Assembly (NCBI RefSeq): GCF_001939115.1
Contig: NZ_MQTZ01000061.1
Location: 1-37,591 of the forward strand
DNA length: 37,591 bases
Reading direction: 5' to 3'
Source of the DNA: Leptolyngbya sp. 'hensonii'
Lineage (GTDB): Bacteria > Cyanobacteriota > Cyanobacteriia > GCF-001939115
The position numbers and the translations under genes are program-made. Positions 16,054 through 34,838 of this stretch are shown here, in pieces (the stretch's first letter is position 1; each line of letters opens with the position of its first letter). The notes under the pieces were generated by a model. That model did not search any database, was not told where the DNA came from, and saw only the letters and a list, made by a program, of their open reading frames with translations.

Positions 16054-16088
16054 AGAATCGTTACCATCCTACCTGGCTCATCCTTCCC

Positions 16089-16880: not shown

Positions 16881-16967
16881 TCCCTGTCAGGCAGGTGATC
16901 GCTGGAGGACGGGAGTGGGTAATCTAGGGTATAGGACGGTTCTTCTCACTATTCAGTTGCGGTAACC

Positions 16968-17498
16968 ATGAAAAATCTTGAGGCCCAAACGACTCAGCGT
17001 CATCCTCTGCAACGGCTCAAACAGAAGTTTGCCGAGCTGTCTCTCGTCTCTGCCCTGGGATCCACCTCTTCCAGGCAAGATCAGAATGCGGAAACTGGCA
17101 AACCCCTGAGTTATGAGGAAAAGCGGGCTCAGGGACGGGATCGTTTCCGGCGCATCATCACCCTCATCTCTCTAATCTCTTTTGGTGGAAGTATTTCCAC
17201 TGGCATCGTCCACACCTTTAGCCAGGCCAGTGATGCGGATAAACCCATCCAGGCGGTGCAGCAAACAGAGCAACTCCGACGGCAACAATTTTCGGCTGAA
17301 GAACAGGGATACCTGATTGTGCTGAAGCGAGAACCCAATAATCAGGTGGCTCTGGATGGGCTGGCAGCAGTGCGGATCAAGATGCATGACTGGAAAGGCG
17401 CGATCGAACCGCTGGAAAAACTGGTTGCGCTCAATCCGGGTCGGGAGGACTGGAAAACTCTGCTGGAGAACATCAAGCGCAGAGCGAATCAGAAGTGA
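16968..17498 (+). CDS. Membrane-anchored TPR-like protein
   Basis: A 176-residue protein of a type common in cyanobacteria and without a known function. A basic cytoplasmic N-terminus of about 60 residues leads to one hydrophobic helix at about residues 63-84, then a linker, then two TPR-like helix pairs from residue 108 to 165 (E-E-Q-G-Y-L-I-V-L-K-R-E-P-N-N-Q-V-A-L-D-G-L-A and W-K-G-A-I-E-P-L-E-K-L-V-A-L-N-P). It lies 21 nt upstream of pseB on the same strand, so it may be the first gene of the nonulosonic acid operon. A protein-docking role is inferred from the TPRs only. Confidence 0.75.
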   Translation: MKNLEAQTTQRHPLQRLKQKFAELSLVSALGSTSSRQDQNAETGKPLSYEEKRAQGRDRFRRIITLISLISFGGSISTGIVHTFSQASDADKPIQAVQQTEQLRRQQFSAEEQGYLIVLKREPNNQVALDGLAAVRIKMHDWKGAIEPLEKLVALNPGREDWKTLLENIKRRANQK

Positions 17499-19668
<2,170 letters not shown>

Positions 19669-19672
<4 letters not shown>

Positions 19673-20412
19673 AAGTCGTCATCATTGTGCAGGCGCGGAT
19701 GACTTCGACCCGTCTGCCGGGGAAGGTGCTGCTGCCGGTGCTGGGGAAGCCATTGTTGGAATATCAGTTGGAACGGCTACAGCGGGTCACTCTGGCCGAT
19801 CAGGTGGTGGTGGCCACCACCACGAATGGGACGGACCAGCCGATCGTAGACCTGTGCGATCGACTGGGGGTGCCGTCCTTCCGGGGTTCGGAGCTGGATG
19901 TACTGGGCCGCTATGCAGGGGCAGCGCTGGCTTTTGGAGCAGAGGGGGTGGTGCGGGTGACTTCGGATTGCCCACTGATCGATCCGCTGGTGATTGATCA
20001 GGTGATCAGGCTGGATCGGGAGCAACCGGATGATTATGATTATGTGGCGAATGTCAGCGAGCTCGTGCGGACCTATCCCAGGGGGATGGATACGGAGGTG
20101 TTTAGGGCGGAGAGGTTATACCAGGCCGATCGGGAGGCAACCCTGGAGCCAGATCGGGAACATGTGACCCCATACATCATTCGGCATGCACCGGAGGAAC
20201 GGCGGGGACTGGTTCGCTACGATCGGGATGAGAGTCGTCACCGCTGGACGGTGGATACGCCAGAGGATTTTGAGTTGATCCGGCGCATGCTGGAGGTTCT
20301 GATTCCGGTAAAGCCAGAATTCACCCTGGAGGATGGGCTGGCGTTGCTGTCTCGCTATCCAGAATGGGGGGAGATTAATGCCCATGTTGAACAGAAGCAG
20401 TATGGACAATGA
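19669..20412 (+). CDS. SpsF-type cytidylyltransferase (CMP-nonulosonate synthetase candidate)
   Basis: A 247-residue nucleotidyltransferase of the COG1861/SpsF group. The N-terminal I-V-Q-A-R-M-T-S-T-R-L-P-G-K-V-L is the glycine- and arginine-rich nucleotide-binding loop, and R-V-T-S-D-C-P-L-I-D carries the metal-binding acidic residue. By position between pseC and pseG it would supply the PseF function, activating the nonulosonic acid with CTP. It belongs to the SpsF branch known from the Bacillus spore-coat sps operon rather than to the PseF/NeuA branch, as far as I can judge by eye. Overlaps of 4 nt at both ends support membership of the operon. The CTP preference is inferred. Confidence 0.85.
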
Positions 20413-21473
20413 AGATCGTTTTGCGGGCGGATTCATCAATCCAAATGGGGACAGGGCATGTAATGCGCTGTCTGACACTGGCGATCGAACTGCGGGAACG
20501 GGGCCATAACCTGACGTTTGTCTGCCGGGACCTGCCCGGGAATTTGGTGGCATTGCTGGAGGCGCGCGGATTTCCGGTGCAGGTGCTGCCCGCTCCGGAT
20601 CATTCCCTGGCCCTGGAAGATTCTCCCTATGCCCGCTGGCTGGGAGTGCCCTGGGAGGTAGATGCAGCTCAGACCCAGGCGGTGATTCCGGCAGAAACGG
20701 ATTGGCTGATTCTGGACCACTATGGCCTGGATGCCCGCTGGGAGAGGCGTTTGCGATCGCAGGTGGGGCAAATTCTGGTGATCGATGATCTGGCAAATCG
20801 GTCCCATGATTGCGATCTGCTGCTGGATCAGAATTTCTATGCTAACCAGGAGCTGCGCTATCAGGGCCTGGTGCCAGCCCATTGTCGGTGTCTGCTGGGG
20901 CCGCAATACACCTTACTCCGATCGGAGTTTTTGGCAGCTCGGCAAACTTTGCAATCGCGGGCTGGTGAACTCCACCGGGTTCTGGTTGCTTTCGGGGGCA
21001 GTGATCCGACGAATGAAACGGCGAAGGTGCTGGCAGGGATTGCCCTGTTGCAGGGGGAGATGGCTGTGGATGTGGTGGTGGGTCAGGCCCATCCGGAGCT
21101 GACGGCGATCGCGCAGCTCTGTAGCGAGAGGTCAAACTGGACGTACCATTGCCAGATTGATTACATGGCGAAACTAATGGTGCAGGCGGATTTGGCGATC
21201 GGGGCGGGGGGGAGTACCAGTTGGGAGCGCTGCTGCCTAGGACTGCCAGCCCTAGTCGCCGTGACGGCTGAAAACCAGCTGGAGCTAACCGCAGATTTGG
21301 CAACCTGGGGCGCGATCGTCAATTTGGGCTGGGCCGATCGCCTGACTGGGGAAGACTATGGGCAAGCCATCCGCAGTCTGACCGCTACCCAACTCAGTCA
21401 GATGTCCCAACGGGGGCTGGTCCTGGTGGATGGGGCAGGATGCTCCCAGGTTGCCGCTAATATCTCGCTCTAA
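20409..21473 (+). CDS. pseG: UDP-6-deoxy-AltdiNAc hydrolase
   Basis: A 354-residue GT-B fold hydrolase that removes UDP from UDP-2,4-diacetamido-2,4,6-trideoxy-beta-L-altropyranose before condensation with phosphoenolpyruvate. The N-terminal R-A-D-S-S-I-Q-M-G-T-G-H-V-M-R-C motif contains the conserved catalytic histidine, and the UDP-binding half shows L-V-A-F-G-G-S-D-P-T-N and G-A-G-G-S-T-S-W-E-R. The C-terminus ends after the second Rossmann half, so there is no fused PseH acetyltransferase. The 77-nt gap after it is the largest in the pse part of the cluster. Confidence 0.92.
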   Translation: MKIVLRADSSIQMGTGHVMRCLTLAIELRERGHNLTFVCRDLPGNLVALLEARGFPVQVLPAPDHSLALEDSPYARWLGVPWEVDAAQTQAVIPAETDWLILDHYGLDARWERRLRSQVGQILVIDDLANRSHDCDLLLDQNFYANQELRYQGLVPAHCRCLLGPQYTLLRSEFLAARQTLQSRAGELHRVLVAFGGSDPTNETAKVLAGIALLQGEMAVDVVVGQAHPELTAIAQLCSERSNWTYHCQIDYMAKLMVQADLAIGAGGSTSWERCCLGLPALVAVTAENQLELTADLATWGAIVNLGWADRLTGEDYGQAIRSLTATQLSQMSQRGLVLVDGAGCSQVAANISL

Positions 21474-21550
21474 CCGGGGAACACTCTCTAAAGACGCCCT
21501 CATGGGTATCTCTTGATTGTTTCTTAACTCAAATCCAGGATGCAGCAGCT

Positions 21551-22603
21551 ATGCGGCTAGTTAAAATTGCTCACCATGAGATTGGACTGGGCCATCCTCC
21601 ATTTATCGTGGCTGAAGCGGGGATTAACCACAATGGCGATCTGGCAACTGCCTGTAAAATGGTTCGGGTTGCAAAGGCTGCCGGTGTCAGCGCCATTAAA
21701 TTTCAGACGTTTAAGGCTGAGGAGTTTGTCGGCGATCCCCAGCAGACCTATACCTACCAGTCCCAGGGCCGGGAGGTGACCGAGTCCATGCTGGAGATGT
21801 TCAAACGGTACGAATTTTCGGCTGCAGAATGGGCCACGATTAAACGCTACTGCGACGAAACCGGAATTCTGTTCCTGTCCACCCCCCAAAATCGATCGGA
21901 CCTGAATCTTCTCCTCGACCTGGGTATCTCCGCCATCAAAGTGGGCTCCGATGACTTTACGAACCTGCCCCTGTTGCAGGACTACGCTACCACTGGCCTG
22001 CCCCTGATCGTCTCCTGTGGCATGGCGGATCTCTCCGAAGTCCATCAGGCTCTGGCGGCGATCGGTGCTCTGGATGGGTACCCGACGATTCTGCTGCTCT
22101 GTACCTCCCAGTATCCGACGCCTCCGGCGGATGTGAATCTGCTGAAGCTCCGCACCCTGGCGGCGGCGTTTCCGGATCTGGTCCTCGGTTTTTCTGATCA
22201 TACCCAGGGTCCCCTGGCTTCCTCTCTGGCGGTGGCTTTGGGGGCGTCCTTCTTCGAGAAGCACTTCACCCTGGACCATGACCTCCCAGGACCAGATCAC
22301 TGGTTTTCAGAAGATTCGATCGGGCTGCAAGAGTGGACGACGGCGATTCAAACTGCCCATCGGATGCTGGGCAGCAGCATAGTACGGCCCACGACAGCCG
22401 AACAGGAGATGCGCACCCTGGCCCGCCGCAGTGTTGTGGCACTGCGCCCAATTCAGTCGGGTGAGTCCCTGGGACCGGACAACATTGGCCTGCGCCGACC
22501 GGGCAATGGGTTGCCCCCGGCCTTCCTGGAACAGGTGTTGGGCTTAACAGCCGTGCGGGAGATGCCACAGGGGCACGCTTTGCAACTGGGAGACTTTCAC
22601 TAA
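21551..22603 (+). CDS. pseI: Pseudaminic acid synthase
   Basis: A 350-residue NeuB-family enzyme that condenses the diacetamido-trideoxy-hexose with phosphoenolpyruvate to form the nine-carbon nonulosonic acid. The TIM-barrel start has V-A-E-A-G-I-N-H-N-G-D and A-I-K-F-Q-T-F-K, and G-F-S-D-H-T-Q-G follows in the second half. The C-terminal 60 residues form the SAF/antifreeze-like domain, S-V-V-A-L-R-P-I-Q-S-G-E. I assign PseI rather than legionaminate or sialate synthase mainly from the PseB/PseC/PseG context; the sequence alone would not decide. The acyltransferase ATG overlaps its TAA stop. Confidence 0.9.
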   Translation: MRLVKIAHHEIGLGHPPFIVAEAGINHNGDLATACKMVRVAKAAGVSAIKFQTFKAEEFVGDPQQTYTYQSQGREVTESMLEMFKRYEFSAAEWATIKRYCDETGILFLSTPQNRSDLNLLLDLGISAIKVGSDDFTNLPLLQDYATTGLPLIVSCGMADLSEVHQALAAIGALDGYPTILLLCTSQYPTPPADVNLLKLRTLAAAFPDLVLGFSDHTQGPLASSLAVALGASFFEKHFTLDHDLPGPDHWFSEDSIGLQEWTTAIQTAHRMLGSSIVRPTTAEQEMRTLARRSVVALRPIQSGESLGPDNIGLRRPGNGLPPAFLEQVLGLTAVREMPQGHALQLGDFH

Positions 22604-23073
22604 TGGATCTGGAAGAATTACAGACGCTATTTAGCCAATTAACCCACTTCAAACAGAACCGCTTCCATCCCCTAGTCTGGATTAATGGAGAGCCGGAAAT
22701 TGGCGAAAACGTGTATATCGGTGGCTTGTCTGAAGTGAACGCCACAGGGGCCAGGGTTGTGATTGGGGATAACTGTGATATCGCCTCTTTTGTGTCGATT
22801 AACTGTGCGGATTCCCATAAGCAATGCATCGGCTTGTCCAATCAGGTAGACCGGAAGGACATCACGATTGAAGCCCATGTGTTCATTGGCTCCCACAGCG
22901 TCATTAAGGGTGGGGCGCACATTGGCCATCATTCAGTTGTTGCTGCTGGAACGATCGTGGATGGGGTGACCATTCCACCCTATTCCCTGATTGTGGGGAA
23001 TCCCATGCAGGTCAAACCGGGATACTACCTGAGCAAAATTCCCCAGGTCCAGGACGATCATGATTCCCCATAA
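22603..23073 (+). CDS. Left-handed beta-helix acyltransferase
   Basis: A 156-residue protein with hexapeptide repeats from about residue 28 to 140 (I-G-E-N-V-Y, I-G-D-N-C-D, I-E-A-H-V-F, I-G-H-H-S-V, V-I-K-G-G-A), the trimeric acetyl-CoA-binding fold of XAT-type acetyltransferases. The last hexapeptides end in P-P-Y-S-L-I-V-G-N-P as usual. There is no GNAT-type PseH anywhere in the cluster. This enzyme may acetylate the 4-amino group made by PseC, or it may act with the following aminotransferase on a different sugar; the sequence does not decide. It overlaps pseI by 3 nt and the next gene by 14 nt. Confidence 0.85.
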   Translation: MDLEELQTLFSQLTHFKQNRFHPLVWINGEPEIGENVYIGGLSEVNATGARVVIGDNCDIASFVSINCADSHKQCIGLSNQVDRKDITIEAHVFIGSHSVIKGGAHIGHHSVVAAGTIVDGVTIPPYSLIVGNPMQVKPGYYLSKIPQVQDDHDSP

Positions 23074-24076
23074 CAGGCCCACCCTGGGGCCAGAAGAAGA
23101 AGCGGCGGTCATCCGGGTGATTCGTTCCGGGTGGTTGGCCCAGGGTCAGGAGGTGCAGGCTTTCGAGGCCGAGTTGTGCAGGTTCCTGGGGTTACCGGAG
23201 CATCATGCTGTGGCACTGACCAGTGGCACAGCGGCTCTGTTCCTGGCGCTCTGGGCTTTGCAGGGGCGGGGTAAAAAAGTGGCCTTCCCGGTCTATACCT
23301 GCTCATCCATCCGCCATGCGATCGCCATGGCTGGCGGCGAAGAGGTCCAGGTCGATATCACGCCCGGAACGCCAAACCTGGCCCTGGAGCAACTGGCCCA
23401 AACAGAGGCTACCGTTGCGATCGTGCCTCACATGTATGGTCTGCCCCTAGATCTGACCCATTTGCAGGGTGTGACAGTAATTGAAGACTGTGCCCAGGCT
23501 CTAGGGGCAGTGATCCACCAGGTCCCAGCAGGCTTGCAGGGCCACATTGGGATTTTCTCCTTCTATGCCACCAAGCTCATCACATCAGGGGGGCAGGGAG
23601 GCATGGTTGTTTCCAGAGATCGGAGTTTAATCGACGCGATTCGGGATTATCGAGAATTTGATTGCCGACAGGACGATCGGCAGCGGTTCAATTTTCAAAT
23701 GACGGATCTACAGGCTGCTATTGGCCGGGTGCAACTTCGCCGTCTGCCCCAATTTTTGACGCGCCGGGCCGAATTATTTCACCGGTATCAACAGGCTGGA
23801 CTTCCCCTTCTGGATAGCCCCCTGAATCCCGTCCGGTTCCGCGCGATCGTCCAAACCACCCGCCCCTCAGCCCTGATCGACGCCCTGGCTGCCGCATCGG
23901 TCAAAGCCATCATTCCGATCGAAACCTGGGAACTGCTGGGTGATCCGGCCCATTTTCCGGTGGCCCGAGCCCTCACCCAGGAAACGGTTTCCCTCCCTCT
24001 CTATCCCTCCCTCCAGGATGCAGAAATGGATCTAATCCTGAATTCCTTGCTGACATTTATGGATGCTACCCCATGA
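23060..24076 (+). CDS. DegT/DnrJ/EryC1 aminotransferase (second)
   Basis: A 338-residue PLP-dependent sugar aminotransferase, shorter than PseC. P-H-N-R-P-T-L-G-P-E-E-E opens the fold, E-D-C-A-Q-A-L-G-A is the PLP contact segment, and F-Y-A-T-K-L-I-T-S-G-G-Q-G-G contains the Schiff-base lysine. Where PseC has G-E-G-G, this protein has G-Q-G-G. A second sugar aminotransferase in the same cluster suggests either a second aminodeoxy sugar or a modification of the nonulosonic acid. It precedes a WbqC-family gene with a 4-nt overlap. Confidence 0.88.
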   Translation: MIPHNRPTLGPEEEAAVIRVIRSGWLAQGQEVQAFEAELCRFLGLPEHHAVALTSGTAALFLALWALQGRGKKVAFPVYTCSSIRHAIAMAGGEEVQVDITPGTPNLALEQLAQTEATVAIVPHMYGLPLDLTHLQGVTVIEDCAQALGAVIHQVPAGLQGHIGIFSFYATKLITSGGQGGMVVSRDRSLIDAIRDYREFDCRQDDRQRFNFQMTDLQAAIGRVQLRRLPQFLTRRAELFHRYQQAGLPLLDSPLNPVRFRAIVQTTRPSALIDALAAASVKAIIPIETWELLGDPAHFPVARALTQETVSLPLYPSLQDAEMDLILNSLLTFMDATP

Positions 24077-24756
24077 TTCTTTCAGCCCATCAACCAGCTT
24101 ACCTGCCCTGGCTGGGATATTTTGATAAGTTGCTCAGAAGTGATCTGTTTATTTTTCTGGATACAGTGCAATACGAAAAAAATAGCTTCATCAACCGGAA
24201 TCGGATCAAAACACCCCAGGGACCAGTATGGCTGACCATTCCTGTCAAAACCAAAGGTCACATCAGCTCCACGATGCTGGAAACCGAGATTGATTCTTCA
24301 CAAAACTGGCGTGAGAAGCATCTGAAGTCAATTTATCTCAACTATCGCAAGGCTCCTTACTTTGAGATCTGTTATCCCAAACTGGAGTGTTTATATCAGC
24401 AGAAAATTGATTTGCTTGCCGATCTCTGCTTTGAACATTTATCCTTCTGGTTGCAGGAACTGGGGGTAAGTCCTCAACTGGTTCGGTCCAGTGCCCTCCC
24501 AATCGCCAGTAAGAAGTCTGACCTGATCTTTGATTTGTGCAGCCAATTCCAGGCTGATCGGTATATTTCAGGCACCCTGGGGCAAGATTATCTGGAGGTC
24601 GATCGCTTCCAGGCTGCTGGGATTTCGATTGAATTTCAGGACTACCGCCATCCGTCCTATCCCCAACTTTACGGCAATTTTTTGCCTTACATGGGCATTG
24701 TAGATTTGTGGATGAATTCACAGGACTTTTCGATCATTACAGGACAACCCCTATGA
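24073..24756 (+). CDS. WbqC-family protein
   Basis: A 227-residue protein with the family opening H-Q-P-A-Y-L-P-W-L-G-Y-F-D-K, then F-L-D-T-V-Q-Y-E-K-N-S-F-I-N-R-N-R-I-K and W-L-T-I-P-V-K, all conserved in WbqC-like proteins of O-antigen clusters. The biochemical activity is not firmly established; in several clusters it accompanies genes for N-acylated aminodeoxy sugars, so a role in sugar N-modification is a reasonable inference. There is no membrane segment. It lies between the DegT aminotransferase and a methyltransferase with 4-nt overlaps at both ends. Confidence 0.88.
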   Translation: MILSAHQPAYLPWLGYFDKLLRSDLFIFLDTVQYEKNSFINRNRIKTPQGPVWLTIPVKTKGHISSTMLETEIDSSQNWREKHLKSIYLNYRKAPYFEICYPKLECLYQQKIDLLADLCFEHLSFWLQELGVSPQLVRSSALPIASKKSDLIFDLCSQFQADRYISGTLGQDYLEVDRFQAAGISIEFQDYRHPSYPQLYGNFLPYMGIVDLWMNSQDFSIITGQPL

Positions 24757-25421
24757 ATTTTTCTCAAGATTGGGACCAGCGTTATCGTGCTAATACCCAC
24801 CTCAGTATCTGGCCCTGGTCCGATCTGGTCAGTTATGTGATGCGCTACGCCCGCCCCCAAAGTTCAGACTTTCGGGTGCTGGAATTGGGCTGTGGCGCAG
24901 GGGCCAATATCCCTTTCTTCAACAAATTGGGGGTGCAGTACTACGCGATCGAAGGCAGTCCCCACATTGTCGAACAACTCCAAACCACCTATCCCGACCT
25001 GCACTCCCGGATTGTAGCGGGAGACTTCACCCTGGACCTTCCTTTTGACGGAACCTTTGATCTGGTGGTCGATCGTAGCGCCCTCACCTTCAATACCACA
25101 ACTGCGATTCAGCAAAGTCTGGGGCAGGTTTACGCAAAACTGAAACCGGGGGGGGCTTTCATCGGCATTGACTGGTACTCAACCCAGGCAGCCGAGTATC
25201 AGCGGGGGGAACCCACTGAAGATCCCTATACCCGCACTCATTACACCGAAGGCCCCTTTGCCCATACAGGCCGGGTTCACTTCTCAGACAAACCCCACCT
25301 GCTAAACCTGTTTCACCAGTTTGAGATCACCATCCTGGAGCACAAGCTGCTGCAGCGGGAGATCCCCCAGGATGGCTTTAGCCTCGCCACCTGGAACCTG
25401 GTGGCGAAAAAAGCCCTATGA
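24753..25421 (+). CDS. Class I SAM-dependent methyltransferase
   Basis: A 222-residue Rossmann methyltransferase. Motif I is V-L-E-L-G-C-G-A-G-A-N-I, the acidic loop at strand 2 is Y-A-I-E-G-S, and F-D-L-V-V-D-R-S matches motif IV. Its opening F-S-Q-D-W-D-Q-R-Y is common in glycan-cluster methyltransferases. The frame is open from an upstream ATG at 24708, but ATG 24753 overlaps the WbqC stop in an ATGA arrangement as at the neighbouring junctions, so I chose it. The PIG-L gene starts in its stop. The target, presumably a sugar O- or N-group, is unknown. Confidence 0.87.
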   Translation: MNFSQDWDQRYRANTHLSIWPWSDLVSYVMRYARPQSSDFRVLELGCGAGANIPFFNKLGVQYYAIEGSPHIVEQLQTTYPDLHSRIVAGDFTLDLPFDGTFDLVVDRSALTFNTTTAIQQSLGQVYAKLKPGGAFIGIDWYSTQAAEYQRGEPTEDPYTRTHYTEGPFAHTGRVHFSDKPHLLNLFHQFEITILEHKLLQREIPQDGFSLATWNLVAKKAL

Positions 25422-26119
25422 CGACTCAACCTCAAACGGTTCTGGTGGTAGCGGCCCATCCCGATGATGAGGTGCTGGGCTGCGGTGGCACGATCGCCCG
25501 CCATGCCCTGGCTGGTGACACGGTCCATCTCCTCATCCTGGCAGAGGGAGCCACCAGCAGGGATTTGCTGCGCGATCGCAGCCAACGACAGTCTGAACTC
25601 TCGGCCCTGGCCACTGCGGCCCATCGGGCTGCTGGGATTCTGGGAGCCACGTCTGTAAGCCTGCACGACTTCCCAGACAACCGCATGGATAGTTGCGATC
25701 GCCTGGATGTGGTCAAGGTGATCGAACAGGTGGCCCAACAATATGCACCCACCATCGTCTACACCCACCACAGCGGGGATGTGAACATCGACCATCGCTG
25801 CATTCATGATGCCGTAGTCACGGCATTTCGCCCCCTACCCGGCAGTCTGGTCAGCACCCTGCTGTTCTTTGAAGTGGCCTCCAGCACGGAATGGCAACCT
25901 CCCGGTTCAGCACCAGCCTTTATCCCCAACTGGTATGTGGATATCTCGGCTACCCTGGACCTGAAACTACAGGCCCTGGCTGCCTACACCTCGGAGATGC
26001 GGCCCTGGCCCCATGCCCGATCTCTGGAGGCAATCCAGGCTCTGGCCCAGTGGCGGGGAGCCACGATCGGGGTTTCTGCAGCGGAAGCTTTTGTGCTGGG
26101 CCGCCATCGCGTGATCTGA
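25418..26119 (+). CDS. PIG-L/LmbE-family deacetylase
   Basis: A 233-residue zinc-dependent N-deacetylase. The metal motif is V-A-A-H-P-D-D-E-V-L-G-C-G-G at residues 11-24, with the third ligand in N-I-D-H-R. Family members remove acetyl groups from GlcNAc-type sugars, including GlcNAc-PI, mycothiol and bacillithiol precursors and antibiotics. In this cluster it could deacetylate an amino sugar so that the acyltransferase/WbqC genes can install a different group; this is inference. The giant protein gene follows after 76 nt. Confidence 0.87.
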   Translation: MTTQPQTVLVVAAHPDDEVLGCGGTIARHALAGDTVHLLILAEGATSRDLLRDRSQRQSELSALATAAHRAAGILGATSVSLHDFPDNRMDSCDRLDVVKVIEQVAQQYAPTIVYTHHSGDVNIDHRCIHDAVVTAFRPLPGSLVSTLLFFEVASSTEWQPPGSAPAFIPNWYVDISATLDLKLQALAAYTSEMRPWPHARSLEAIQALAQWRGATIGVSAAEAFVLGRHRVI

Positions 26120-26195: not shown

Positions 26196-29100
26196 ATGCC
26201 TACTGTCAGAATCATCGTTGTCCAGGGTCCGCTGCAATTGCTCAATGTCCTCTCTGTTTTGCGGTCTCAGGCCCAAGCGGGAGAGTACCAGAATTGTGAA
26301 GATCATCTGGTCATGGGAGGATACCGACGGGATGAGCAATTCACAAAGGTCTGCCTGCAAATTGCTAGCATCTGGCGCTTTAAGGCGATCACCACGCTGC
26401 ATGATTTTGAGCTGACCTATTATCGGGATGGAGAGGATTTCCAGGCCGCAACGGCCCAAATCAAAGATTTTTTGGGGATTGCCTCAGCTGATGTGGTCTA
26501 TACCTGTCGAAACTGGCAATTTATCAATGAATTGTTTCTGGTTGCCTATTCAGAGGCGCATAAAATTTGCTATGGCGATGGCCTAGGCTGGCTCGATCTA
26601 AACAGCCTTGCTTTTTATAGCACCAAGCCTTTGAACGCAACCGGATTTGTGGCGATCGATGAGGCCCACCTGATTGCTCCCGTTGACGACGGCACCTGTT
26701 TTGATCTCTGCCCCATTCGTCTGGTGCCCCCAGAAATTTTCAAGTCGGTGGTGGCAGATAGTGCTCGACAAGTTGAAGGGCTACAAGCCTATTGTGAGTC
26801 TCTAGTGGAACAGTTGGGCCAATCTATCACCCTTGTGCTCACGTCCTATGAATTTCTGGCGCAATATATCCCAACCCTGGAAGAGGAAGTTCAGTGTTAT
26901 CTCTCCTGCCTGAGTAGCTGTACCCAGCCTGGAGATACGCTTCTGATTAAGCAGCATCCGAGGCAGCCCTATGAACAGGCCCAGTACCTGATCGAGGCTC
27001 TGGCGGCGGGCGATCGGACTTCGGAGGTACTGCAGAATTTTAGAGCGGTTCCGATCGAGCTCTTCACGGAGTATCTGCCCATTCGGAAGGCGATAACCTT
27101 TGGGTCTTCCTGCTGTATTTCCCTGGCTTACCTCTGCCGCTGTGAAGTGGTCATCGGTTATGGGGAACACCTGATCCGACAATTTTTCGTGAAAAAGGCT
27201 CAGGACTATCGCCTGGTCCACGAATATGCCCTATCTCTAGTTACAAACCAGGCCTATAGTGGCAGCTTCACTGCAATCCGACTGCCTGAAGTAGAGCAGC
27301 GCATGATTGTGACCCACAAACATCCGATTCGGCTACAAGCAGCTAGCCTGATCCAGCATTCCCTGCCGATCAATTTGCAGGAACAGGATGTGGTCAATTG
27401 GTTCCACCAACTCTATTACACCTCTGCTCAGCAACGGGGCGCAACCTGGCAGAAAACCTACTGGATGGGACAGGCCCTTTACAAATGTCCCCTGGACTTG
27501 TGGATTTACCAGGAGATTCTGTTTAAGCTCAAACCAGAGCTGATTATTGAGTGCGGCACCCTGTTTGGTGGCAGTGCCCTGTTCTTTGCCCAGATGTGTG
27601 ATTTGCTGGGCCAGGGAGAGATTGTCAGCATTGATATTGAAGCCAAGCCCAACCGTCCTGAGCATCCCCGCATCTCCTACTGGCTTGGTTCCTCGATTTC
27701 ATCTGAGATCTTTGAGCGGGTTCAGGAGCAGGTGGCCGGGAAGCAGCCAATTCTGATTGTTCTGGACTCCGATCACAGTGCCAGACATGTTCTGGATGAG
27801 CTGCGCCTGTATAGCCGGTTTGTCACGGTGGGCAGCTACATCATCGTGGAAGATAGCAATGTGAACGGCCATCCCGTCTATCTGGAACATGGTCCCGGTC
27901 CAATGGAGGCCATCCAGGCTTTCTTGAAAGAGAACTCAGAGTTTTACATCGATCGAGACTGTGAGAAGTTCTATCTGACGATGAATCCCTGCGGATATCT
28001 GCGGCGGCGATCGCTGGCTCCCTCAGAACGGGCACTGTCGCACCTGAAATTCAGTCTGACCCAGTATCAGAAGGGATGGGCGTTTGATGAAGCCTTGGCC
28101 AATCTGGGGCAGATGCGACAGGATGTGGTCGATCGCTGGCTGGCCCTGTCTCCCGAAGAACTGGAAGGACAATATAGGGGAGAATTGGGCGATCTCCACC
28201 GCACCCTTCTCCACAGTGGATTGCGCCACGAAGGGCTGACGACGACTGAACAAATGTTGCTGGATGCGCTGGTTGCCCGACTCGAATCGGGGCTGACCCG
28301 CTCCACTCTGCCTGCACTTCTGGCTGCCATGCTCTATCAACGGGCCGATCAACTTCCCCTGCCCTGTGATCTGACACCGATTCCAGACTGGTTCCTGCCA
28401 GACTATCTGAAATTCCTTTTCCACGATCAGGTCTTTTTTCGGGAAGTGGGGGAGGCAGAACGGTTTGGCCAATATTTCCAAAATTGGGTCAATTATCTGT
28501 ATGAGTCCATGCAGCGAGAGCCCGATTCCCCCTTCTGGCATGAGGTTTTGCAGCAGTTCAGCCAGATGGCAAGTTTCATCCCCCTCTATTTCAATGAACT
28601 GAACTTGAAGCAGGTTTACAGTCAGCGGGCTGATATCATGGCTTTTTGCCTGGGCCAGCTCTACCATCAACCGCTGGACTACGACTTTGGTGGTCCCACT
28701 TACTACAAAAAAATCCGATTGGGAATTCTGGCCACCCACTATACCCCTGCGGCTGAGACCTTTGCAGCCCTGCCCTTATATGAATGCCTGAGCCGGGAAT
28801 TTGAAGTCATTCTCTATACCCTCCGCATTACCAACCATCCCCTGGAACAATATTGCTGGAGTTGTGTTGGGAATCTCAAAACTCTGCCGGAAAAACTGGA
28901 GGATCAGGTTCGCTTCATTCGAGCAGATGATCTGGATATCCTTTTCATTGCGGGTAATATCACTGCTGTGACGAATTCTCTCTGCCTGCTGGCGCTGTAT
29001 CGCCTGGCCAGGGTCCAGGTTACGAGTATTGCCTCGATCGTCACGACTGGGATGCGGCACATGGACTATTACCTGTCTGGTCAGTTGACCGATCCCCTGA

Positions 29101-30236
29101 TCACAGCCCAGGAACACTATCGGGAAAAGCTGGTGAAGTTGGCGGGATCAGCTCACTGTTTCAGCTATCCCAGTGGTATTCCCTATAAACCTGTACCGCA
29201 GGTGGACCGATCGTCTCTGGGAATTGCTGACGATGTCGTCGTTTTTGTCTCTAGCGCAAATTTCTTTAAGCTGGTCCCAGAATTGCTGCATAGCTGGGCT
29301 CAAATTCTGGCATCTGTGCCCAACGCTCTGTTGATGCTGCTCCCCTTTGGGCCAAACTGGTCTGATGCCTATCCCAAACAGATGTTCATGGGTCATGTCG
29401 CAGCCCTCTTCGAAGAGTACGGGGTCACTGCCGATCGCCTGCAGATTCTCGACCCCCAACCGGTGCCCGATCGGGAAGGGGTAAAAGCATTCTTTCGTCT
29501 GGCAGATATTTATCTGGACTCCTATCCCTTCGCCGGTACCACCTCTCTGATGGAGCCTCTGGAGGTGGGCCTGCCGACCTTAACCCGCAAAGGGAATGCC
29601 CTGCGGGGAGCCATGGGAGCAGCCCTGATTGAGGTGCTGGGTCTGCCCGACCTGGTGGCCACCAGTGAAGCGGAGTACATTGAGCGGGCGATCGTCCTGG
29701 GCCAGGATACAGCCCTACGGCAACAGCTACGGGCAGAGGTGGAGCAGCAGATGCAGGCAGTACCAGCATTTCTCGATAGCCTGGATTATGCTGCCCGTCT
29801 CGGTCCTCTGTTTGCTGAAATGTTGCGGGGACAGTTGCGGGAATCCTTGAAACTGCGAGAGCTCAACCTGATTCTGTTTCCCGATTGGCGGGCTCCAGAA
29901 GAGGAATTGGCAGCAGATCTGGCTGTGGGTATCGCAGGAGTGCTGCGCCATCCTGATCGGCATCGCATTACCCTGCTGGTGGATAGCAGCAATGCGATCA
30001 GCGTCGAAGAGGCAGATATGGCAATTTCAAGCATTACCATGCAGTTGTTGATGGAAGAGGAGTTAGAAGCTGCAGGGGATGAACCAGAGATTTCTCTGAT
30101 CAGCCGGTTTAGTGAAGCCCAGTGGTATGGGCTGATTCCCTTTGTCCAGGCCCGCATTCCCCTGGCTCAAGAAAACACGGCGGCGATCGATCAGGCCGGA
30201 GCCCGGTATCTGCCCCTCTGGGAGCCCGATCGGTAG
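26196..30236 (+). CDS. Giant fusion: sialyltransferase-like + CmcI methyltransferase + SPINDLY-like GT41
   Basis: A 1346-residue protein with at least four parts. Residues 1-380 resemble bacterial sialyl/polysialyltransferases: the V-V-Q-G-P-L-Q-L-L-N opening, an acidic G-D128-G motif, the H254-P255 motif and G303-S-S, in the order seen in GT52/polyST-like enzymes. Residues 425-600 look like a CmcI-type methyltransferase: E452-C-G-T-L-F-G-G SAM loop, D480-I-E, and D524-S-D-H-S. Residues 600-835 are helical and unrecognised. Residues 839-1160 resemble the catalytic half of O-GlcNAc transferase/SPINDLY: N-F-F-K-L-V-P-E with the UDP-binding lysine near 1020 and D1108-S-Y-P-F-A-G-T-T. Residues 1175-1346 are an acidic domain I associate with cyanobacterial glycosyltransferases. 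The frame is open throughout. It likely transfers and modifies the nonulosonic acid made by the upstream genes; the donors are inferred. Confidence 0.8.
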   Translation: MPTVRIIVVQGPLQLLNVLSVLRSQAQAGEYQNCEDHLVMGGYRRDEQFTKVCLQIASIWRFKAITTLHDFELTYYRDGEDFQAATAQIKDFLGIASADVVYTCRNWQFINELFLVAYSEAHKICYGDGLGWLDLNSLAFYSTKPLNATGFVAIDEAHLIAPVDDGTCFDLCPIRLVPPEIFKSVVADSARQVEGLQAYCESLVEQLGQSITLVLTSYEFLAQYIPTLEEEVQCYLSCLSSCTQPGDTLLIKQHPRQPYEQAQYLIEALAAGDRTSEVLQNFRAVPIELFTEYLPIRKAITFGSSCCISLAYLCRCEVVIGYGEHLIRQFFVKKAQDYRLVHEYALSLVTNQAYSGSFTAIRLPEVEQRMIVTHKHPIRLQAASLIQHSLPINLQEQDVVNWFHQLYYTSAQQRGATWQKTYWMGQALYKCPLDLWIYQEILFKLKPELIIECGTLFGGSALFFAQMCDLLGQGEIVSIDIEAKPNRPEHPRISYWLGSSISSEIFERVQEQVAGKQPILIVLDSDHSARHVLDELRLYSRFVTVGSYIIVEDSNVNGHPVYLEHGPGPMEAIQAFLKENSEFYIDRDCEKFYLTMNPCGYLRRRSLAPSERALSHLKFSLTQYQKGWAFDEALANLGQMRQDVVDRWLALSPEELEGQYRGELGDLHRTLLHSGLRHEGLTTTEQMLLDALVARLESGLTRSTLPALLAAMLYQRADQLPLPCDLTPIPDWFLPDYLKFLFHDQVFFREVGEAERFGQYFQNWVNYLYESMQREPDSPFWHEVLQQFSQMASFIPLYFNELNLKQVYSQRADIMAFCLGQLYHQPLDYDFGGPTYYKKIRLGILATHYTPAAETFAALPLYECLSREFEVILYTLRITNHPLEQYCWSCVGNLKTLPEKLEDQVRFIRADDLDILFIAGNITAVTNSLCLLALYRLARVQVTSIASIVTTGMRHMDYYLSGQLTDPLITAQEHYREKLVKLAGSAHCFSYPSGIPYKPVPQVDRSSLGIADDVVVFVSSANFFKLVPELLHSWAQILASVPNALLMLLPFGPNWSDAYPKQMFMGHVAALFEEYGVTADRLQILDPQPVPDREGVKAFFRLADIYLDSYPFAGTTSLMEPLEVGLPTLTRKGNALRGAMGAALIEVLGLPDLVATSEAEYIERAIVLGQDTALRQQLRAEVEQQMQAVPAFLDSLDYAARLGPLFAEMLRGQLRESLKLRELNLILFPDWRAPEEELAADLAVGIAGVLRHPDRHRITLLVDSSNAISVEEADMAISSITMQLLMEEELEAAGDEPEISLISRFSEAQWYGLIPFVQARIPLAQENTAAIDQAGARYLPLWEPDR

Positions 30237-30240
30237 GCCC

Positions 30241-31827
30241 ATGCTCCAGCGTCATCCTAATTGGACGGCTTTTCTGCTCATTGGTCTGTTTTGGGCAGTT
30301 GTATTGACCAGCAGCGGGGCTTTATTTTCTGGCTATCACTTCATGGATGACCACGAAATAGCGGCCATTCATTACAGTCTGACGGTTCAAAAAACTCCCT
30401 TCTGGGAGATGGTCAGTCAATGGCTACAGGCTGATTACGGTCAGAGTCGATTCAGGCCAGTTTATTTCATTGGCCGCATCATTGAAACCAAAGTCCTGGG
30501 ACTAAATTTCTGGTTCTGGTCCACCTATAAGGGCCTGCTTGGCGTTTTGACCGCTTATTGCCTGTTTCTCTTTGCCCGTCTGCTGCAGTTCACCTGGGGG
30601 GAAGCAATGCTGTTTGTCGCCCTGACAACCCTGGGTTCGCAGTCAGCCATCTGGTGGCAGCTCGGTCCGGCGGAAACCCAGGCCATGGCTTTTCTAGGGC
30701 TATCCCTCCTGGCGTTGGCGTTGGCTGCTGCCAACCGCTATAGACTCTGGGCTGAAATGGCCTTTTTCGGGTTCACCCTGCTCCTGTCCCTAACGAAGGA
30801 GAGCTTTATCGTGGTCATCCCAGCCCTAATTATGCTCAAAGTTGGGCTGACAATGCGGTTGGGGGGATATTCCTGGCTCCAATCCCTGCAGAGAAATCTG
30901 CTGACGGCCCTGATGCTACTCGAATGTTTTGGCCTGGAAATTCTGTTCATCTATACGGCTCTGGGGCGAGAACCCTCCGGCACCTCTCCCCCTCTGGGGA
31001 TGTTGTTGGCTGCCCTGGGGAGTCTGCACCAGCGAGGTCCGGGATGGATTCTGTTGCTGGGATTGTTAATCATCGTTCTGAAGGGGATGGCCATGATTCC
31101 GATTGTTGGCCCGATCGTGGATCCGGTATTGGCCCGATTTCACCGCCATGACGTTGCAGGCAACGTCACGCCATGGCATATCACGATCGTTGGGTTTTAT
31201 ATCCTCTGGGTATTGCCCCAGGCCATCCTCTACAGTGGGGAATTGACCCAGCGGTATCTCCTGCCAGGGGTTCTGGCTCCGGTTCTGGTCAGCCTCTACC
31301 TGTATCGCTGGCTCAAACAGCATTATCCTTCCCTGCGCCTACTGCTTCTGGTTTTGATGGGTCTCAGCCTGTGCCTGCGTCTGGGGACTGTGGGTCAGGC
31401 TTCCGTGCGGTATGCCCTGGAGGGGAAATCAACGACAGCGCTTTTGTCCACGATTCAAACTCGCACCACCCCCACGGACCCGATTCTCCTGGTGACCAAC
31501 CCCAGAAACTATCTGGAGTGGAACCTTTCCTTTAAGCGCTTTCTGACCGATGCCCTCGATCGTCCCAATCTTTATTTCAGTACCTACACCGCTCCTCAGG
31601 CCGCCTACATGGAAAGACTGAGGCAATGGTATAACTTTCGCTCTCTGGAAAAGTTATCAGATAAGCAGCGTATCGGTTGTATTACGATCTTTCCCCTGTT
31701 GCATCCAGCTTTCCTGCGGCGATCGAAATCCTGGTTTCAGCCAGAACGCTATCAACAATTTGTGTTTGGCAATTTCAACCGCAATCGAGATCCGAATTCG
31801 GAGATTTATCTCTACTGCAAAAAATAA
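30241..31827 (+). CDS. Polytopic GT-C-like membrane protein
   Basis: A 528-residue integral membrane protein with about nine or ten helices. After the first helix, the loop holds F-M-D36-D37-H-E, an acidic motif like the catalytic one of GT-C glycosyltransferases, then R-F-R-P-V-Y-F. The C-terminal 120 residues are soluble and end in L-Y-C-K-K. Start ATG 30241 lies 4 nt after the stop of the giant protein; an upstream in-frame ATG at 30142 would run inside that gene and add an arginine-rich non-membrane stretch, so I rejected it. Placed at the end of the cluster, it could glycosylate on the periplasmic face from a lipid-linked donor. No closer family is recognised. Confidence 0.8.
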   Translation: MLQRHPNWTAFLLIGLFWAVVLTSSGALFSGYHFMDDHEIAAIHYSLTVQKTPFWEMVSQWLQADYGQSRFRPVYFIGRIIETKVLGLNFWFWSTYKGLLGVLTAYCLFLFARLLQFTWGEAMLFVALTTLGSQSAIWWQLGPAETQAMAFLGLSLLALALAAANRYRLWAEMAFFGFTLLLSLTKESFIVVIPALIMLKVGLTMRLGGYSWLQSLQRNLLTALMLLECFGLEILFIYTALGREPSGTSPPLGMLLAALGSLHQRGPGWILLLGLLIIVLKGMAMIPIVGPIVDPVLARFHRHDVAGNVTPWHITIVGFYILWVLPQAILYSGELTQRYLLPGVLAPVLVSLYLYRWLKQHYPSLRLLLLVLMGLSLCLRLGTVGQASVRYALEGKSTTALLSTIQTRTTPTDPILLVTNPRNYLEWNLSFKRFLTDALDRPNLYFSTYTAPQAAYMERLRQWYNFRSLEKLSDKQRIGCITIFPLLHPAFLRRSKSWFQPERYQQFVFGNFNRNRDPNSEIYLYCKK

Positions 31828-31834
31828 AGTGGTA

Positions 31835-31851
31835 CCTGAAGCAGTTTCAGG
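31835..31851 (-). terminator. Possible weak terminator hairpin
   Basis: CCTGAA (31835-31840) and TTCAGG (31846-31851) form a 6-bp stem with a 5-nt loop between the convergent genes. On the minus strand it overlaps the cyclase stop codon, and a T-run lies about ten bases beyond. There is no T-run on the plus side, so it would serve the minus strand at most. Confidence 0.3.
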
Positions 31852-32905
31852 CTGAATGATGGGGTTGGATCAATCCCCTGATGAATTGCAAAAGTCGTTG
31901 CCAGAAGTGGTTTAATCGGGCCATCCAGCCTTTTTCAGCAACAGATTCCTTCGTACTCGACGAGAACTGTTCCTGGCAGGGAGTTTCCGTGACATCGATA
32001 ATTTCGTACAGACGATACTCACCGGTTTTGCCAGGAACCTGAACCTGGACGGCCTGATTCACAATCACCAGGTCTTTCACCTGCTCATACATGGCTTCTG
32101 AGATCAGCAGAGAAGTGCCAACCTGTTTGTTCGCGGATTCAATTCGACTGGCGAAGTTGACCGCATCTCCGATCGCCGTCACCACCTTTTTCCTGAAGGC
32201 CCCGATCGAACCAACGACCGCAGGGCCATAGTGAATCCCAATCCCAATTTTCAGGCGACGGTGGTAGAGGGTTTCCAGATAGGGATTTAGCTTCTCCAGG
32301 GCTTCCAGCATTTCTACGCCCGTTCTAACAGCCCGTTCGGCGATACGATCGGAATTCTCAACTCCAAACAGCACCATCATGCCGTCGCCCATGTAGTTAT
32401 TGATCATGCCGTCGTAGCGTTGAATCACCTCTCCCATGCGCTGGAAGTAGCGATTCAGCAGGTAAATCACATCGTAGGGGGTGACGGTTTCTGAAAAGGA
32501 GGTGAACCCTCGAATATCAGCGAACAGGATCGCAATTTCCTTCTCCTCCCCGATCATGCCCAGACCATTGCGATCGTCCACTTGGTCGCAGAGCAATTCA
32601 ATATCTTCAACATCCAGGGCTAATCGTCGCAGGGTAACTTTCCCACTGCCCTGAAGCTGAGTCTGGCAGGCCAGACGAATGGTGGGCGATAAGTGTAATT
32701 TCTCTGTAAGAGCCTCCTCCAGAGGATTGCGGGGGGTGCAATATTCCAGCCCATCTACAATCAGGACACGACAGGTAGAACAGCGGGCATTGCCCCCACA
32801 AACATGGGTGTGGGGAATATCAGATCGCAGGGATGCTTCCAGGATCACCTCCGACTCATCCACCTCAACCAATCGTTCGTCGGGCAGGTAGTAGATTTGT
32901 GGCAT
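31847..32905 (-). CDS. Ferredoxin domain-class III nucleotidyl cyclase fusion
   Basis: A 352-residue protein. Residues 1-100 are a plant-type 2Fe-2S ferredoxin domain with C-G-G-N-A-R-C-S-T-C (C-x5-C-x2-C) and a fourth cysteine in R-L-A-C-Q-T. From about 120 to 310 is a class III cyclase domain: I-L-F-A-D-I-R-G-F-T-S-F (first metal Asp), N-N-Y-M-G-D-G-M-M (second metal Asp) and A-I-G-D-A-V-N-F-A-S-R-I-E (transition-state Asn/Arg). The Lys that usually precedes Y-x-G-D in adenylate cyclases is Asn here. The C-terminal 40 residues are aromatic and basic and may touch the membrane. TTG 32920 is possible, but ATG 32905 has GGGAG eight bases upstream. Redox-sensitive cyclic nucleotide signalling is inferred. 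Confidence 0.88.
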   Translation of the reverse strand: MPQIYYLPDERLVEVDESEVILEASLRSDIPHTHVCGGNARCSTCRVLIVDGLEYCTPRNPLEEALTEKLHLSPTIRLACQTQLQGSGKVTLRRLALDVEDIELLCDQVDDRNGLGMIGEEKEIAILFADIRGFTSFSETVTPYDVIYLLNRYFQRMGEVIQRYDGMINNYMGDGMMVLFGVENSDRIAERAVRTGVEMLEALEKLNPYLETLYHRRLKIGIGIHYGPAVVGSIGAFRKKVVTAIGDAVNFASRIESANKQVGTSLLISEAMYEQVKDLVIVNQAVQVQVPGKTGEYRLYEIIDVTETPCQEQFSSSTKESVAEKGWMARLNHFWQRLLQFIRGLIQPHHSA

Positions 32906-32988
32906 CCCCTGGACTCCCAAGCATGGTATTACTCATTGCTATAGAACAATTCGCCTGATCGGTTCTCTGCTCCGGAGATAGACAAGTT

Positions 32989-33408
32989 TTATTGTTCTAT
33001 TTCCTCAGAAATAGAGCCTTCAGGTGAGTTTTCGCTGAATTGGAGATTAAGAGGTTCCCCATCTAACTCTGCTTCGGTCAATCTCAAATCCAGTTGGATC
33101 GCATTCAGAGGGTCTAGCTCTACTTCATTTTGGGGTTCTGGTTCCGGTTTAATTCGCCGAATTGGCAGGTTGGCAATGATTGTGGTCGCCCGTTGCCGAT
33201 TTTCCAGAGAAAACTCCAGGCGCTCTGTGTCCACTTCTACATAGCGAGAGACCAGTTCTAGAATTTCCGCCTGCATCTGAGCCACAATCGCAGGATTCAT
33301 TTCCGTGCGATCGTTAGCCAGCACCAGCTTCAGGCGACGCTTCACATCCTCACGGCTGGAATCATGACTCCAGCGGGGAAACAGTCTCTCTAGCAATTCA
33401 ATAATCAT
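32989..33408 (-). CDS. minE: Cell division topological specificity factor MinE
   Basis: MinE stimulates the MinD ATPase and restricts MinCD to the cell poles. Residues 2-12 (I-I-E-L-L-E-R-L-F-P) form the N-terminal amphipathic membrane and MinD-contact region, followed by R-E-D-V-K-R-R-L-K-L-V-L-A-N-D-R and the beta-strand topological domain ending at L-P-I-R-R-I-K (81-87), where I recall other cyanobacterial MinE proteins ending shortly afterwards. This protein continues for 52 residues (88-139) with 15 acidic residues and only one basic one. It lies 45 nt downstream of minD and is probably cotranscribed. Confidence 0.93.
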   Translation of the reverse strand: MIIELLERLFPRWSHDSSREDVKRRLKLVLANDRTEMNPAIVAQMQAEILELVSRYVEVDTERLEFSLENRQRATTIIANLPIRRIKPEPEPQNEVELDPLNAIQLDLRLTEAELDGEPLNLQFSENSPEGSISEEIEQ

Positions 33409-33453
33409 GGAGCATGAACAGTCCGAATAGGGCGGAAAGAAAGAGGATTGTGG

Positions 33454-34260
33454 TTAGACAATTTTGGTGGAGAGTAATTTGCGAATCCGAGACAGAATAT
33501 TTCCGTTATTGCCATTTAAATCCATGAACTCTACCGTTTCACCCAGAAGGCGGCGAGCAATATTGTCGTAGGCGACTCCGGCAGGGGAAAGGGTTTCTGA
33601 CAGTACCAGGGGTTCGCCCCGGTTGGTTGAGACAATCACCCGTTCATCGTCAGGAATGATACCAAGGATGGGAATGGCCAGAATTTCCTGCACATCCTCA
33701 ACTGACATCATATCGTTGGCTTTGACCATGGCGGGTCGAATCCGGTTCACAATCAGGTTGATGCGCTTGATATTGTGGGCCTCCAACAAACCGACCACCC
33801 GATCGGCATCCCGCACCGCCGAGATCTCTGGGGTAGTCACAATCAGGGCTTCCCTTGCCCCGGCGATCGCATTCTGAAACCCCATTTCAATGCCAGCCGG
33901 ACTGTCAATCAGGACAAATTCATAAACCTGGGCCAGGGCATTGACCAGTTTCTTCATCTGTTCGGGAGTGACCGCATCTTTGGTGCGGTTTTGGGCTGCA
34001 GGCAACAAAACCAGATTATTCTGACGTTTGTCTTTGACCAGGGCTTGTTCTAAGCGACATTCTCCAGCCAGGACTTCAACAGCCGTGTAGACAATGCGAT
34101 TCTCCAGTCCGAGGAGCAGGTCCAGGTTTCTCAAACCAAAATCAGCATCCACAACGGCCACTTTGCGGCCCCGTTTTGCCAGAGCCATGCCCAGATTTGC
34201 TGTGCAGGTGGTCTTGCCGACCCCGCCTTTACCGGAGGTAATAACAATGAAGCGAGCCAT
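33454..34260 (-). CDS. minD: Septum-site determining ATPase MinD
   Basis: A 268-residue ParA/MinD-family ATPase that binds the membrane with ATP and recruits MinC. The deviant Walker A motif is S-G-K-G-G-V-G-K-T-T at residues 8-17, the switch I region includes V-V-D-A-D-F-G-L-R-N-L-D, and Walker B is F-V-L-I-D-S-P-A-G. The C-terminus I-L-S-R-I-R-K-L-L-S-T-K forms the amphipathic membrane-targeting helix. Length is standard. The gene order minD-minE is conserved, but minC lies upstream beyond an oppositely oriented lipoprotein gene. A 173-nt divergent gap upstream should hold its promoter. Confidence 0.96.
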   Translation of the reverse strand: MARFIVITSGKGGVGKTTCTANLGMALAKRGRKVAVVDADFGLRNLDLLLGLENRIVYTAVEVLAGECRLEQALVKDKRQNNLVLLPAAQNRTKDAVTPEQMKKLVNALAQVYEFVLIDSPAGIEMGFQNAIAGAREALIVTTPEISAVRDADRVVGLLEAHNIKRINLIVNRIRPAMVKANDMMSVEDVQEILAIPILGIIPDDERVIVSTNRGEPLVLSETLSPAGVAYDNIARRLLGETVEFMDLNGNNGNILSRIRKLLSTKIV

Positions 34261-34381
34261 GGGTGAGTGAGATTAAGGAATATCTAAATGGATTGGTGTT
34301 GACTTTAACTTAAAGTAGCGGAATTTGGGGAGATTGGCGATCGGAGAGCCCTGATTTGCATCGATCATTAATAAACCAATC

Positions 34382-34387
34382 TATTAT
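34382..34387 (+). promoter_or_regulatory. Candidate -10 box for the lipoprotein gene
   Basis: TATTAT lies 62 nt before ATG 34449 in the AT-rich divergent region between minD and the lipoprotein gene. A TTGCAT at 34356-34361 is 20 nt upstream, longer than the ideal 17 for a -35 partner, so the call is weak and rests on composition only. Confidence 0.3.
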
Positions 34388-34448
34388 GCACAAGGTCTCC
34401 CATTTGTCATAACCTCTAGCCCAGATTTTCTCTATGGAGAGCTCTCCC

Positions 34449-34832
34449 ATGTTCTTAAAACCTCTTGGCCTCCCGATCATTACCCTGATTATCGGCGCAA
34501 CCCTGACGGTAAGCTGTCAACAGACGCCACAAAACCAATTGTTAGGAGAATGGACCGGATCAGATTCATCGAACCGGCCTGTCTCCATGACCTTTACTTC
34601 CTCCAACACGATCCAGATCAAAGTCGGCGAGGAGTCTGGCGACGGAACTTACACCACAGACCTGAACCAAAAACCCGCTCACTTAACCATTGACCTGGGT
34701 AACCGGGGCAAAGTGGAGACGATTTTTGAAATCACCCAGGATGGGAAATTGCGCATAGAAAATAATAACCCTGGTAAGAGCCGCCCTGAAACATTTACAG
34801 GCCGATCGGTCCTTTTCTCCCGACCAAAGTAG
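34449..34832 (+). CDS. Small putative lipoprotein between minD and minC
   Basis: A 127-residue protein with an N-terminal hydrophobic segment and a lipobox-like T-V-S-C at about residues 20-23, so probably exported and lipidated. The mature part has a lipocalin-like or beta-sandwich look: L-L-G-E-W-T-G-S-D, M-T-F-T-S-S-N-T-I-Q-I and G-T-Y-T-T-D, a pattern shared with cyanobacterial small lipoproteins of unknown function. ATG 34434 is in frame, but ATG 34449 has GGAG nine bases upstream and removes charged residues before the signal. It points away from minD and ends 6 nt from the convergent minC end. Function unknown. Confidence 0.78.
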   Translation: MFLKPLGLPIITLIIGATLTVSCQQTPQNQLLGEWTGSDSSNRPVSMTFTSSNTIQIKVGEESGDGTYTTDLNQKPAHLTIDLGNRGKVETIFEITQDGKLRIENNNPGKSRPETFTGRSVLFSRPK

Positions 34833-34838
34833 TCACCA

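Follow-up and report, generated by a model that had tools for sequence, protein, structure and literature searches.

A Cyanobacterial Three-Module Fusion of a Sialyltransferase-Like, a CmcI-Type Methyltransferase and a GT41-Like Domain Encoded Downstream of Nonulosonate Genes

Introduction

What does a protein make that combines two types of glycosyltransferase (GT) and a methyltransferase in one chain? This question is raised by a 1346-amino-acid (aa) protein of Leptolyngbya sp. 'hensonii', encoded on a 37,591-nucleotide stretch (contig NZ_MQTZ01000061.1, positions 1 to 37,591; hereafter, the window) directly behind genes for a cytidine monophosphate (CMP)-linked nonulosonic acid. In this protein, a sialyltransferase-like module (module 1), a CmcI-type S-adenosylmethionine (SAM)-dependent methyltransferase (module 2), and a GT41/SPINDLY-like domain (module 3) follow each other (Table 1). 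The analysis presented below points, with reasonable though by no means full confidence, to a soluble three-module glycan-assembly enzyme that would build a short glycan, probably on protein, O-methylate it, and cap it with a nonulosonate.

Results

One Conserved Reading Frame

The frame starts with ATG and, as had been stated in an initial, sequence-only reading of the locus, runs through 1346 codons with zero internal stops. The motifs named in that reading were all found at exactly the positions given, both in the first two modules (G127-D128-G129, H254-P255, G303-S304-S305, E452...G459, D480, D524-S-D-H-S) and in the GT41-like region (N1022-F-F-K1025-L, D1108...T1115-T1116), and its three domain assignments were borne out by matches to PF07388, PF04989, and PF13844 that all exceeded the curated Pfam cut-offs. 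Each module is a member of a known family. The combination itself is previously undescribed in the open-access literature searched, in which no paper on this domain order or on cyanobacterial multidomain glycosyltransferases was found; the early claim of an undescribed architecture held within that scope.

Relatives of the fusion were sought by scanning one genome per species. Full-length relatives were detected in two independent assemblies, those of Nostoc sp. 106C and of a Nostoc metagenome-assembled genome (S13), with 51–52% identity over residues 1–1345 and an identical module order. Identity to the window protein was highest in the CmcI module (69–71%), followed by the GT41 module (59–60%), and lowest in a helical spacer (33%). 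Ratios of nonsynonymous to synonymous substitution rates (dN/dS) between the two Nostoc copies were approximately 0.22 for module 1, 0.09 for CmcI, 0.39 for the spacer, 0.13 for GT41, and 0.26 for the C-terminal tail, showing that purifying selection acts on every segment. Since the full-length protein occurs in two independent Nostoc assemblies and dN/dS is about 0.09–0.39 throughout, a chance fusion was rejected, and the idea that misassembly or a sequencing error had joined separate genes, in favor of which nothing was found, was ruled out for practical purposes. Split genes in relatives, which would have spoken against the sequence-only reading, were not what the Nostoc genomes contained: the fusion was conserved as one frame. 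No further fusions came to light when two other cyanobacterial families were scanned family-wide, and a scan of viral contigs yielded no relatives.

Module 1 Resembles Bacterial Sialyltransferases

The sequence-only reading had depended on residues 1–380 resembling a sialyltransferase, and residues 1–398 did match sialyltransferase families. When scanned alone, this segment matched the polysialyltransferase-like family PF07388 over residues 6–289 (28.6 bits against a cut-off of 23.3; E 1.4e-6). Among 17 module-1 homologues, 16 matched PF07388 (E ≤ 0.1; best E 3.4e-16) and nine matched PF07922/GT52 (E ≤ 0.1). Alignment of the 17 sequences showed conservation of C-Y-G-D128-(G/S)-x-G, K252-x-H254-x-R256, S304-S305, and G321; D128, K252, H254, R256, S304, S305, and G321 were invariant, and the Pro of the HP motif was present in at least 90% of the sequences. 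In the GT38 sialyltransferase MhPST, the catalytic base E153 is part of a D/E-D/E-G motif, H291 is the acid, and S339 and T340 are phosphate ligands (PMC5517516); the D/E-D/E-G and HP motifs are defined in PMC2169525. In module 1, D128 corresponds to E153, H254 to H291, and S304/S305 to S339/T340, the last pair being matched by motif order rather than by structural superposition. Module 1 thus shares PF07388 and PF07922 matches, a catalytic Asp/Glu and His, and the SS/ST positions with GT38/GT52 sialyltransferases (NmB-polyST, MhPST, Lst). A module-1 profile did not match any solved chain among the PDB sequences.

The Neighborhood Points to a CMP-Nonulosonate Donor

The fusion ends a run of overlapping or closely packed genes, whose upstream part (17520–26119) extends from a PseB-like dehydratase through a PIG-L deacetylase. 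Presence of PseB, PseC, CMP-synthetase, PseG, and NeuB genes ahead of the fusion supported the location, proposed from the sequence alone, downstream of genes for a CMP-nonulosonic acid. The NeuB-type synthase scored higher with NeuB (342.6 bits) than with PseI (229.7 bits), both under cut-off, so that these scores do not fix the exact nonulosonate of the window pathway. In Nostoc, the genes upstream of the fusion encode LegB, LegC, NeuB, NeuC, a methyltransferase, a FemAB-like protein, a PtmE-like nucleotidyltransferase, and a PseF-like cytidylyltransferase. The same fusion is thus tightly linked to two kinds of CMP-nonulosonate genes, pseudaminic-type in the window and legionaminic-type in Nostoc.

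In both Nostoc genomes, the sole PF02348 match was located approximately 0.3 kb upstream of the fusion; for the genome of the window, the gene in the window itself was the sole strong PF02348 match. As no other strong CMP-sugar synthetase was found in the three fusion genomes, this neighborhood makes CMP-nonulosonate the most likely donor of module 1.

Modules 2 and 3

Residues 418–604 matched PF04989 with 199 bits (cut-off 23.2). The SAM/metal motifs G454, G458-G459-S460, D480, D524-S-D-H, and E552-D553 were invariant in the three fusion proteins. In this match, in the SAM motif, and in D480, D524-S-D-H, and E552-D553, module 2 resembles CmcI and rhamnosyl O-methyltransferases (PF04989, NF045824), from which it differs by being embedded in a fusion and by a score under the NF045824 equivalog cut-off (164.6 versus 400 bits). 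Because the score is far below this cut-off, the profile does not assign the methylated sugar, and the substrate may differ from that of the rhamnosyl enzymes.

The C-terminal part, scanned alone, matched PF13844 over residues 1004–1192 (89.6 bits against a cut-off of 25), and the best solved match of the GT41 module was SPINDLY (SPY; 2.9e-33). Pyrophosphate, fucose, and ribose are bound in SPY by N662, K665, T747, T748, and E752 (PMC10027727), whose counterparts in the fusion are N1022, K1025, T1115, T1116, and E1120. Within the GT41 family of modules, K1025 was kept in 24 of 26 and E/D1120 in all 26. These contact residues, and the helices that precede the GT domain, are shared with Arabidopsis SPINDLY and human OGT. 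Unlike in these two proteins, the GT domain is located behind two other enzymes and no tetratricopeptide repeat (TPR) array was confirmed, with Pfam detecting no TPR family anywhere in the fusion.

Discussion

A Proposed Glycan-Assembly Enzyme

Roles for the three modules are suggested by analogy with two single-chain systems. In WbbB, an N-terminal GT99 transferase of 3-deoxy-D-manno-octulosonic acid (Kdo) ends chains made by two C-terminal GTs, and Klebsiella O7 ORF6 combines an N-terminal methyltransferase-kinase terminator with GTs in one chain (PMC11231755). In a corresponding scheme, the N-terminal, putatively GT-B module of the fusion would move an eight- or nine-carbon ulosonic acid from its CMP form to cap a glycan, with D128 acting as base, H254 as acid, and S304 and S305 holding the phosphate. 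The donor acid would here be a pseudaminic-type nonulosonate provided by the 17520–26119 operon. The CmcI module would O-methylate a sugar of the same glycan, and attachment of an inner sugar from a nucleotide donor would fall to the GT41 module; as in OGT and SPINDLY, this would probably be the sugar closest to the protein. GT41 precedents act on protein Ser/Thr. Enzyme activity, donor identity, methylated position, protein acceptor, order of action, and the convergence on one shared glycan are thus what we infer from the conserved modules and their surroundings.

What the fusion shares with WbbB and O7 ORF6 is a single chain in which an N-terminal terminator, either a CMP-ulosonate transferase or a methyltransferase, is combined with C-terminal GTs. 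Unlike these proteins, the fusion has both types of terminator and would use a nonulosonate instead of Kdo. In contrast to WbbB, its front is of the PF07388 type rather than GT99 (the GT99 profile was not compared directly), its C-terminal part is GT41, and its surroundings did not show an ABC transporter that carries a sugar-binding module. A more specific version, in which GT41 glycosylates a protein, a front derived from Kdo transferases adds the nonulosonate cap, CmcI methylates, and the operon's pathway sets the identity of the cap, is a tentative possibility. If true, it would imply that cyanobacteria swap pseudaminic and legionaminic pathways beneath one conserved capping enzyme.

Evidence Against the Proposal and Alternative Explanations

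Several observations weigh against the proposed nonulosonate-capping enzyme, some of which come from relatives of module 1 that occur outside fusions. In the loci examined, these stand-alone proteins (approximately 360–410 aa) adjoin KdsA, KdsC, KdsB, and KdsD. A strong KdsB-type gene was present in 13 of 13 genomes with a stand-alone copy and in 2 of 31 hand-chosen comparison genomes (Fisher p 2e-9; several of the 13 belong to the same genus and are not fully independent), and a true NeuB in only one of the 13. This Kdo link sets module 1 apart from GT38/GT52 sialyltransferases, and it led to rejection of the notion that sialyltransferase motifs prove a nonulosonate donor. Of the sequence-only reading, the domain assignment and the link to CMP-nonulosonate genes stood, but the motifs alone do not fix the donor, which is instead indicated by the genome neighborhood. 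The family of module 1 appears to comprise CMP-ulosonate transferases that are mostly Kdo-linked, with the nonulosonate pairing specific to the fusion lineage. The same stand-alone loci could be taken to mean that module 1 itself transfers Kdo or another CMP-linked acid and that its position beside nonulosonate genes is incidental. This explanation is considered unlikely, as the three fusion genomes lack a second strong CMP-sugar synthetase and each has its sole strong one linked to NeuB-type genes.

Other counter-evidence concerns catalytic motifs, structural models, and distribution. Where GT38/GT52 sialyltransferases have D/E-D/E-G, module 1 has G-D-G, in which the second, catalytic acid (D128) is kept and the first residue is Gly; in both Nostoc copies the motif is G-D-S, and in one Nostoc locus (L033) HP is changed to HL. 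The AlphaFold model of residues 1–406 was weak (pLDDT 47; three input sequences), and Foldseek searches with it gave just weak Rossmann/GT-B-like matches (best E 0.011, none below 1e-3). For residues 606–1346, pLDDT was 45 (three input sequences) and, as regards a TPR array, the low-confidence model showed helices only. The base-reading residues K689 and H728 of SPY are not conserved in the GT41 module, a further difference from Arabidopsis SPINDLY and human OGT; the nucleotide-sugar donor of this module is therefore not fixed by its likeness to SPY. Finally, the fusion is rare: when 390 cyanobacterial genomes were sampled, only that of the window itself contained it and the other 389 did not, and it was present in one of nine genomes examined for the genus of Nostoc 106C.

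A different division of labor, in which the nonulosonate is transferred by the GT41 module while module 1 adds or extends with a further nonulosonate or has some other function, is suggested by FlmG. This TPR and GT-B protein puts pseudaminic acid on flagellin and, as a soluble two-part glycosyltransferase that requires pseudaminic acid (PMC7591256), it resembles the fusion in being a soluble, modular, helical plus GT-B protein linked to Pse synthesis. However, no sialyltransferase-type or methyltransferase module is described in FlmG, and no flagellin gene was seen near the fusion. The same GT41 module, moreover, occurs in many giant proteins of genomes without a true NeuB (e.g., G023, G122, G276, and G340) and retains the residues for pyrophosphate and ribose that are typical of enzymes using UDP- or GDP-sugars, which makes such a division of labor improbable. 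It is also conceivable that the fusion serves only co-regulation or stoichiometry and that the modules have different acceptors. Poor conservation of the helical spacer (33% identity) and the free swapping of module partners among relatives are consistent with separate acceptors, but distant genomes with different sugar pathways share the order of the three modules at 51% identity. As the latter suggests one joint product, we give separate acceptors little credence and favor the three-module glycan-assembly enzyme.

Stand-Alone Homologues in Kds Loci

Stand-alone PF07388-like proteins were found in cyanobacterial Kds loci L059–L072 (e.g., L071 9369–15417 and L070 9938–17334) and are a candidate for an undescribed family of CMP-Kdo transferases. 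In L065, the Kdo-linked homologue is flanked by two apparent ABC polysaccharide exporter gene sets, judged by eye (4339–6550 and 15105–17204), which suggests a chain-terminator role for this homologue.

A Modular Class of GT41-Ended Proteins

Among 380 sampled genomes, 31 contained matches to the segment at residues 606–968, which is typical of this GT41 module; of the 44 matches, 32 lay in frames of more than 1000 codons. GT41-capped giant cyanobacterial proteins comprise approximately 1,000–2,800 aa and carry interchangeable glycosyltransferases and methyltransferases (MT). More than twenty GT41-module proteins were opened for domain content. Their fronts included GT4-MT24-TylF (L076, L096), GT4-MT24-CmcI-GT4 (L095), CmcI-GT4 (L105), FkbM-GT4-GT2 (L092), MT23-GT4 with several GT2 (L093), MT11 (L089), and GT2 tandems (L075, L077), and two proteins had no front at all (L074, L108). 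These varied fronts indicate a recurrent plan of front GT, methyltransferase, and terminal or near-terminal GT41. Among the proteins opened, a PF07388-type front was confined to the window protein and its two Nostoc relatives. The fusion is thus not a one-off design but belongs to a modular GT/methyltransferase class.

Single frames of 2193–2797 codons, with several GTs and methyltransferases and a terminal or subterminal GT41, were found at L092 8254–16482, L093 6837–15230, L095 7818–14399, and L106 7449–14459. Each of the two Nostoc genomes encodes, close to the fusion, a further GT41-like protein of approximately 765 aa (L032 12270–14564, minus strand; L033 15119–17416).

The open-access literature searched appears to contain very little on the nonulosonate glycans of cyanobacteria or on their transferases, and the fusion is a candidate for such a transferase. 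Within one transferase family, moreover, the donor seems to have changed from Kdo to nonulosonates or the reverse, and the fusion draws attention to a class of giant proteins that mix GTs and methyltransferases in modular fashion on a common GT41 end. One-chain enzymes of this kind would also lend themselves to the synthesis of defined methylated, acid-capped glycans.

Features and Other Observations in the Window

Table 1. Position and assignment of the fusion, its segments, and adjacent genes in the window.
Feature	Position	Strand	Basis or remark
PseB-like sugar-nucleotide dehydratase	17520..18509	+	PF02719
PseC aminotransferase	18506..19672	+	TIGR03588, 555 bits, above cut-off
CMP-sugar synthetase, KdsB/PseF-like	19669..20412	+	PF02348; sole strong one found in this genome
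PseG UDP-sugar hydrolase	20409..21473	+	TIGR03590, above cut-off
NeuB-family nonulosonate synthase with SAF domain	21551..22603	+	Profile matches
Hexapeptide-repeat acyltransferase	22603..23073	+	
Second DegT-family aminotransferase	23060..24076	+	
WbqC-like protein	24073..24756	+	
SAM methyltransferase	24708..25421	+	
PIG-L family deacetylase	25418..26119	+	
Three-module fusion protein (CMP-ulosonate transferase-like / CmcI methyltransferase / GT41-like), 1346 aa	26196..30236	+	Open reading frame, Pfam, full-length relatives
Module 1, GT-B-type bacterial sialyltransferase-like (PF07388), aa 1 to ~398	26196..27389	+	Pfam; D128, H254, S304, S305 invariant in 17 sequences
Module 2, RMNT_CmcI SAM-dependent O-methyltransferase, aa 418–604	27447..28007	+	PF04989
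Helical spacer, aa ~606–835	28011..28700	+	Fastest-evolving segment, 33% identity to Nostoc
Module 3, GT41/SPINDLY-like GT domain, aa ~836–1215	28701..29840	+	PF13844; N1022, K1025, T1115, T1116, E1120
C-terminal tail, aa ~1216–1346	29841..30233	+	Segment also present in other cyanobacterial proteins
528-aa hydrophobic, membrane-type protein directly downstream of fusion	30241..31827	+	Without Pfam family

The 528-aa hydrophobic protein encoded right after the fusion is a possible membrane glycosyltransferase or exporter. Elsewhere in the window, a 737-aa protein (13113–15326) showed weak phosphoketolase/transketolase similarity (best 52.8 bits), and a 2Fe-2S ferredoxin domain (PF00111) was found fused to an adenylate/guanylate cyclase domain (PF00211) at 31847–32920 on the minus strand. 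The nonulosonate island is directly adjoined by minE, a minD-like gene, and minC (32989–35639).

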